The notes under the pieces are model-generated. The model saw only the letters and a program-made list of their open reading frames with translations, ran no database searches and was not told where the DNA came from. The translations under genes and the position numbers were made by a program. This document shows positions 36,948 to 38,048 of a stretch of 64,000 bases of DNA, one piece after another (position 1 is the first letter of the stretch; every line of letters starts with the position of its first letter). The stretch comes from Lepidurus packardi (lineage: Eukaryota > Arthropoda > Branchiopoda > Notostraca > Triopsidae): positions 1 through 64,000 of the forward strand of contig JAKZAN010000159.1 in assembly GCA_023053545.1 (NCBI GenBank). The letters run 5' to 3'.

Positions 36948-38048
36948 ATGCTCACCAGATTAGTCATGCAAACCATCACTAAAACCAAGTATATAGCTTA
37001 TGTCCCTGGGGAGTCAGCCGATAAGCTCACCATCGAAACTAGAGAACTACCCCTGCCTAAGCCTGATGAATGTCTTCTCCGCATCAAAGCTATCGCTCTG
37101 AACCGTGCTGAGATCATGCATAGAAATGGCAAGTACCCGATCACCAAAGAAGAGGAGAAATACCTCGGTCTTGAAGCCTCAGGAGAACTTATTTCACAAT
37201 CAGGGTATTCCCACCGCATTCATACATAATCTTCATCCTTACTAGATAAGAGACTGGTCAAAAAGTAATGGCGCTGATGTCTGGTGGCTCATACGGGGTT
37301 GGGGTTGGGGTTGGGGTTGGGGTTGGGGTTGGGGTTGGGGTTGGGGTTGGGGTTGGGGTTGGGGTTGGGGTTGGGGTTGGGGTTGGGGTTGGGGTTGGGG
37401 TTGGGGGGTTGGGGTTGGGGTTGGGGTTGGGGTTGGGGTTGGGGTTGGGGTTGGGGTTGGGGTTGGGGTTGGGGTTGGGGTTGGGGTTGGTACTGCAGCC
37501 ATCCAACTCTGTCAGCATGTGTTCGGAGCGCGGCCCTATGTCGTGGTCAGCACAAAAGAAAAGTTAGACTATTGTCTGAAGCTTGGAGCAGCTGGAGGTG
37601 TTGCTTATAAGAACAACTAAAAATGGTCTGAAGAGCTCCTAGGTCAGCTCAAAGATAAGTCAAATTTCGACATCGTTTTGGACTGCGTCCTTGCCAGCAA
37701 CTACGAGCATACCTTAAAGCTTCTTGGTATTGACTCCAGATGGGTAATTTATGGCACGATGGGCGGGACTAAGGTAGATAGTATGAATTTTCTGCCGTTC
37801 TTAGCCAAACGAATCAACATCATCACGAGCACATTGAAGACTAGATCCAACTAGTATAAGACAGAACTAATCAGCAACTTCTCGAACGGGTGCTGCCTAA
37901 ATTCGAGGATGGATCATTGAACCCCATAATCCACCAGGTGTTGAAGGCTGATTGGGAGAAGGAGAAGCCTTAAGCTTTTATCGAGGGACAGAAGATAATG
38001 GAAAGTAACGAGACTATAGGGAAAGTTGTGATCGACTACTCTAAATGA
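36948..38048 (+). pseudogene. PIG3-like quinone oxidoreductase, interrupted
   Basis: A medium-chain dehydrogenase/reductase close to TP53I3/PIG3. Exon 1 reads ETRELPLPKPDECLLRIKAI, ALNRAEIMHRNGKYP and YLGLEASGELI. A 41-nt intron (37205-37245) is followed by SGEETGQKVMALMSGGSYG. The next 196 bp (37295-37490) are telomere repeats where about 58 residues of the family should be. Homology resumes exactly at GTAAIQLCQHVFGA, then KLGAAGGVAYKN, FDIVLDCV and WVIYGTMGG. Near 37884-37890 the frame changes by one base: upstream it ends at UGA 37918, while the expected C-terminus (VLPKFEDGSLNPIIHQVLKA to IGKVVIDYSK) is in another frame up to 38048. The deposited sequence cannot encode a working enzyme. 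Whether the cell's copy is broken is undecided. Confidence 0.88.
37295..37490 (+). repeat. Interstitial telomeric tract, (GGGGTT)n
   Basis: 196 bp containing about 32 GGGGTT units, perfect except for one GGGGGG at 37403-37408. The G-rich strand reads 5'->3' on +, which is the orientation of a right-hand chromosome end for the DNA to its left. It sits inside the quinone oxidoreductase gene. Codon phase on both sides is GGG-GTT, so only the two extra Gs break the frame. Confidence 0.97.

Follow-up and report, generated by a model that had tools for sequence, protein, structure and literature searches.

A telomere-repeat tract in place of the middle of a PIG3-type gene: probable overwriting during assembly

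We find that a gene for a PIG3-type quinone oxidoreductase is split by 196 bp of (GGGGTT)n telomere repeat, and that this repeat stands in place of coding sequence from the middle of the gene. With a probability of about 0.89, we regard the tract as genuine telomere DNA from shortened copies of the chromosome, misplaced into the gene by an assembly artefact; the gene itself is probably intact in the cell. The observed base of this reading consists of many tracts in one orientation, with telomere-like edges and lengths, and of the loss of the middle of a gene at two loci.

The tract and the gene that it divides

The stretch of DNA analysed (the window) comprises bases 1–64,000 of contig C148 (79,835 bp), which belongs to an assembly of 108.56 Mb in 344 contigs. 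The left terminal telomere of C148 occupies positions 1–268, with its G-strand on the minus strand; it reads (CCCCAA)n on the plus strand and its first bases are CCCAACCCC. The right end of the contig carries about 228 bp of G-strand repeat. Since telomere repeat is present at both ends, C148 looks like a complete small chromosome. Its genes are read with a code in which TAA and TAG encode glutamine (code table 6), and this reading, together with the type of telomere repeat, points to a ciliate as the source.

The assembly as a whole appears mixed. Contig C1 measures 14.05 Mb, C2, C3 and C4 have matches several megabases inside the contig, and the telomere-capped contigs that we examined are about 40–143 kb long, as against the megabase scale of C1–C4. 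A tubulin match on C321 passes one TAG and six TAA codons, whereas the best tubulin matches on C2 pass none. The large contigs C1–C4 may come from another organism. Contigs C78, C193 and C198 have round sizes (110,000, 62,500 and 65,000 bases), as if they had been cut after assembly on a 2500-base grid.

Tandem Repeats Finder places the interior tract at 37295–37490 of the plus strand (period 6, 32.3 copies), exactly where the initial annotation had put 196 bp of (GGGGTT)n. It is composed of 31 perfect units and one 8-base unit, GGGGGGTT, and its last bases are ...GGGGTTGG. Elsewhere in the window, on both strands, runs of at least three perfect units occur only in the left telomere (1–268), and the tract is therefore not a chance repeat. 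The repeat sets in abruptly within unique sequence. Read 5′ to 3′, its G-strand leads off from the left-hand gene part, which is the orientation of a right-hand chromosome end and the one expected at an alternative telomere addition site.

The N-terminal part of the gene (MQTITKT... to ...MSGGSY) was assigned by homology and reading frames to 36966–37294 of the plus strand, with a 41-nt GT-AG intron inferred from the frames at 37205–37245. The C-terminal part (GTAAIQL... to ...VVIDYSK) follows at 37489–38048 of the same strand and closes with a TGA stop at 38046–38048. The frame before the tract ends in ...VMALMSGGSY, the frame after it begins with GTAAIQL..., and between the two there is repeat alone. 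Both flanks match PIG3-type quinone oxidoreductases, the best relative being from Ichthyophthirius. A break of one base in the frame of the C-terminal part, at about 37879–37889, is separate from the tract and looks like a consensus error.

The length of the missing segment can be read from relatives of the protein. We found 29, tried 24 and aligned 22 to both halves; the halves are separated by 55 residues in 19 of the 22 and by 57 and 54 in two others, and the remaining one lacks the N-terminus, so that its gap value is meaningless. If the 55 are extended by the Ala position and by the Gly-Val pair under the tract, the missing span amounts to 58 residues (174 nt), whereas the sequence standing in the gap, from 'tac' to 'ggt act', measures 194 nt. 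This spacing bears out the earlier estimate of about 58 missing residues, as well as the view that the gene has been replaced in its middle and not simply interrupted: coding sequence is lost between two halves of the same gene.

The edges agree less well with what had been proposed. The initial annotation gave the repeat a GGG-GTT phase on both sides, but the reading frames on the left and the right are 2 nt apart, and the tract therefore does not form an in-frame Gly-Val linker. Microhomology between gene and repeat had been suggested for each edge. On the left it can be dismissed beyond about 1 nt, since relatives carry Tyr-Ala at this place; on the right, where the gene's own bases are hidden, it is possible and could be longer, since a conserved Gly-Val-Gly falls there.

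The initial annotation had proposed to look in the same assembly for an intact version of the missing exon. None was found there, and this counts against an artefact. The left flank of the tract matches only itself. A query of nine kilobases around the tract likewise returned itself from the assembly, plus two short weak matches of 51 bp on C4 and 119 bp on C299, both to parts of the query away from the tract. The Ichthyophthirius PIG3 protein recovered both halves on C148 and a distant, stop-free match on C3 that spans the lost segment (residues 91–207 of the query). At 34% identity and on a large contig, the C3 match was set aside as the missing exon, and we take it as a candidate gene of another organism or a distant paralogue.

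Strand, edges and losses at tracts across the assembly

We searched the assembly for G-strand tracts that leave into sequence with A or C. The G-strand repeat runs into other sequence at 56 places on the contig plus strand (60 rows, four places being matched twice) and at one place on the minus strand (seven rows), which has three units. The tract on C148 is thus one among dozens. The search pattern overlooks tracts with ragged exits, such as one on C74, and 56 is therefore neither the full count nor the number of all long tracts. Sequence was inspected at 49 of the 56 places, 43 of which have long tracts; six were left out as short, degenerate or within an interrupted terminal telomere (L035, L036, L052, L074, L077 and L081). 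Together with one extra tract within L079, which the pattern search had not listed, the 43 make up a set of 44 long interior tracts of at least eight units. None of the interior tracts from the pattern search lies on a contig numbered below C78.

The strand bias is pronounced, with p = 8e-16 for 56 of 57 places and p = 1e-13 for 44 of 44 long tracts. Among the matches listed (100 of 1012 rows), all 12 C-strand places fall inside the first 243 bases of their contigs. Since the orientation of a contig is arbitrary, a process in the cell should not yield 56 places against one; a step for which left and right are not equivalent could do so. The bias is one relative to contig direction, as an artefact predicts.

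Some tracts are clustered, with three within 2.6 kb on C300 (16386–18966; L079) and a pair within 0.8 kb on C226 (41860–42684; L067); such clusters are possibly hot zones of chromosome ending. Loci L052 (C169) and L074 (C265) carry short, degenerate telomere-like repeats that are broken by other bases, unlike the clean tracts, and may be true genomic sequence.

The 44 long tracts measure 122–331 bp (median 188 bp), compared with 136–274 bp for six ends of C118, C233, C246, C285 and C148 and about 100 bp for the left end of C73. At their right edge, 23 of the 44 stop after GGG and 37 stop after GG, GGG or GGGG, where about 0.17 (about one in six) is expected by chance for each phase. Of six contig right ends, five, that of C148 among them, stop after GGG, and that of C73 stops after GGGG. 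The left ends of C148 and C73 start in the same phase with CCCAACCCC, as do the left ends of eight of 14 contigs in all, a figure derived from match coordinates among the matches listed. The 21 of 44 right edges that lie outside the GGG phase count against an artefact.

At the left edge, 24 of the 44 interior tracts start with GGGG, compared with 13 of 24 end junctions in a hand count among the matches listed (12 of the 24 are right-hand junctions, eight of those being presumed terminal). A single T precedes the GGGG in three of 44 interior tracts and in seven of 24 ends among the matches listed (Fisher p = 0.03); this difference in left-edge phases also counts against an artefact. Taken as a whole, an interior tract is something like a span from a start that resembles a telomere addition junction to a finish that resembles the end of a molecule. 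Inspection by eye of the 12 bases on either side of the tracts revealed no common motif.

We scanned 30 flanking reading frames from 18 loci against Pfam, with both flanks covered at 12 of these. A codon-usage scan of the frames gave a signal too weak to fix them. Apart from the genes described here, the scans found no domain or no split domain, and a Pfam domain is split by the tract at one locus, L070 on C244. There, the first transmembrane part of an ion channel lies to the left of the tract (22.5 bits; Pfam cut-off 25), and the pore and the cyclic-nucleotide-binding domain of the same channel lie to the right. Seventeen relatives of the channel were found, 15 of them measurable on both sides. 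The nearest measurable one (P0034) has 46 residues (138 nt) between the two parts, where 175 nt now stand, and the gap expected over all 15 ranges from 105 to 249 nt. At both C148 and L070, the match in length (174 versus 194 nt and 138 versus 175 nt) is rough and may conceal introns.

At L066 (C225), the frame of a short-chain dehydrogenase remains open into the tract, with a nearly complete Pfam domain (to position 189 of 195); a reading of the left flank by eye, in which no continuation was seen, weakly suggests that a C-terminus has been lost. At L078 (C289), a Myb-like gene is split by the tract and little of its domain is evidently missing. This locus fits an insertion equally well; it decides nothing, and it counts against an artefact.

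Overwriting by capped reads and the rival explanations

The events behind such a tract can be pictured as follows. Some copies of the chromosome in the polyploid macronucleus would end near 37294 and receive a new (GGGGTT)n telomere from telomerase, while other copies would run past this point. Long reads of the capped copies would agree with the contig as far as 37294, after which about 196 bp of telomere would fill the remainder of the molecule. If the contig is built in one direction, such a read could be retained to its last base; a full-length read would then take over roughly as far along the chromosome as the capped read had reached, so that about 174 nt of true coding sequence would be replaced on paper. 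Clusters of tracts would mark zones in which copies frequently end. Since the same gene continues past the tract on both C148 and C244, sequence has been replaced there and not joined to something unrelated. The initial annotation had listed an assembler or polisher that writes telomere reads over a real segment as one option, and the orientation, the edge phases and the lost segments at two loci strongly support it. Healing by telomerase, another of its options, is supported for a fraction of molecules only, given a left edge like an addition junction; this support does not extend to a chromosome that continues past the healed end.

The tract could instead be a true interstitial telomere, formed when a break was healed by telomerase and then joined to the far side with loss of sequence, so that the chromosome itself reads gene, telomere, gene. 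A left edge like an addition junction, a right edge like the end of a molecule and the resumption of the gene beyond the tract all suit this account, and a 1992 title speaks of 'interstitial telomeres' in the macronucleus of Paramecium primaurelia. Such telomeres should, however, occur alike on both contig strands, which is not what we see, and dozens of events would be needed with the same locus rejoined every time; we therefore consider this history improbable. The initial annotation's suggestion that a break was repaired with telomere repeats while the chromosome stayed continuous is not supported either, for it carries the same expectation of equal strands. It is very improbable, in our estimate, that the tracts are real and directional, with telomeres replacing short gene segments through telomerase healing and rejoining and with the one-sidedness reflecting a chromosome-wide polarity that the contigs share.

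Chimaeric reads, in which telomere ends became ligated to other DNA when the library was made and were then built into the contig, would explain why right edges show the phase in which molecules end. The partner of such a ligation should be random, whereas on C148 and C244 the same gene simply carries on, and the strand bias is not predicted; we give this explanation very little credence. Hardly any remains for a germline-type insertion, that is, an internally eliminated sequence that escaped removal or a mobile element carrying a telomere, of which (GGGGTT)n alone is visible. Telomere-bearing elements of the Oxytricha germline are named in PMC9942806, and the division of the Myb-like gene at L078 is compatible with an insertion, but repeat alone lies between the halves of the C148 gene, coding sequence is missing beyond mere interruption, the tract lengths are spread from 122 to 331 bp and the 12 flanking bases share no motif by eye. 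The strand bias is also left unexplained.

If overwriting by capped reads is the correct reading, known biology, namely the addition of telomeres at internal sites of a ciliate macronuclear genome, is being viewed through an assembly fault. At least 44 places in this assembly are then probably without their true sequence, some of them inside genes, and the same places are candidates for mapping the points at which copies of a chromosome end. A practical test for telomere-rich ciliate assemblies would be to count how many interior tracts lie on each strand and in which phase they end; a surplus on one strand would indicate overwritten sequence. Among the matches listed in the literature, titles and the beginnings of abstracts held no description of such an overwriting artefact.

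Comparison with known systems

Interstitial telomeres have reportedly been described in the macronucleus of Paramecium primaurelia (Katinka and Bourgain, 1992, known by title); as far as the title goes, these are telomere repeats within ciliate macronuclear DNA, as here. Alternative telomere addition provides a further parallel. Paramecium bursaria has many internal telomere addition sites, about 30% of them in coding regions (PMC7702705), Blepharisma stoltei has 46,705 potential telomere addition sites (PMC9942806), and telomeres are added at internal sites in Paramecium tetraurelia (PMC4535620). As here, the sites in these species are internal to a polyploid macronuclear genome and include genes, and the telomere repeat given for P. 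bursaria, C4A2/T2G4, is the repeat found here (PMC7702705). At those sites, the telomere terminates the molecule and is visible in reads, whereas here it is embedded in a contig, on one strand, and the gene carries on past it. Oxytricha trifallax and Stylonychia lemnae also have macronuclear contigs with internal telomeric repeats (39 and 36 cases, respectively; PMC7285179). Like the present tracts, they are telomere motifs located away from the ends of contigs with two telomeres; they are defined by a minimum of two repeats and occur on gene-sized chromosomes, whereas the tracts reported here are 122–331 bp long and lie almost without exception on the contig plus strand (PMC7285179).
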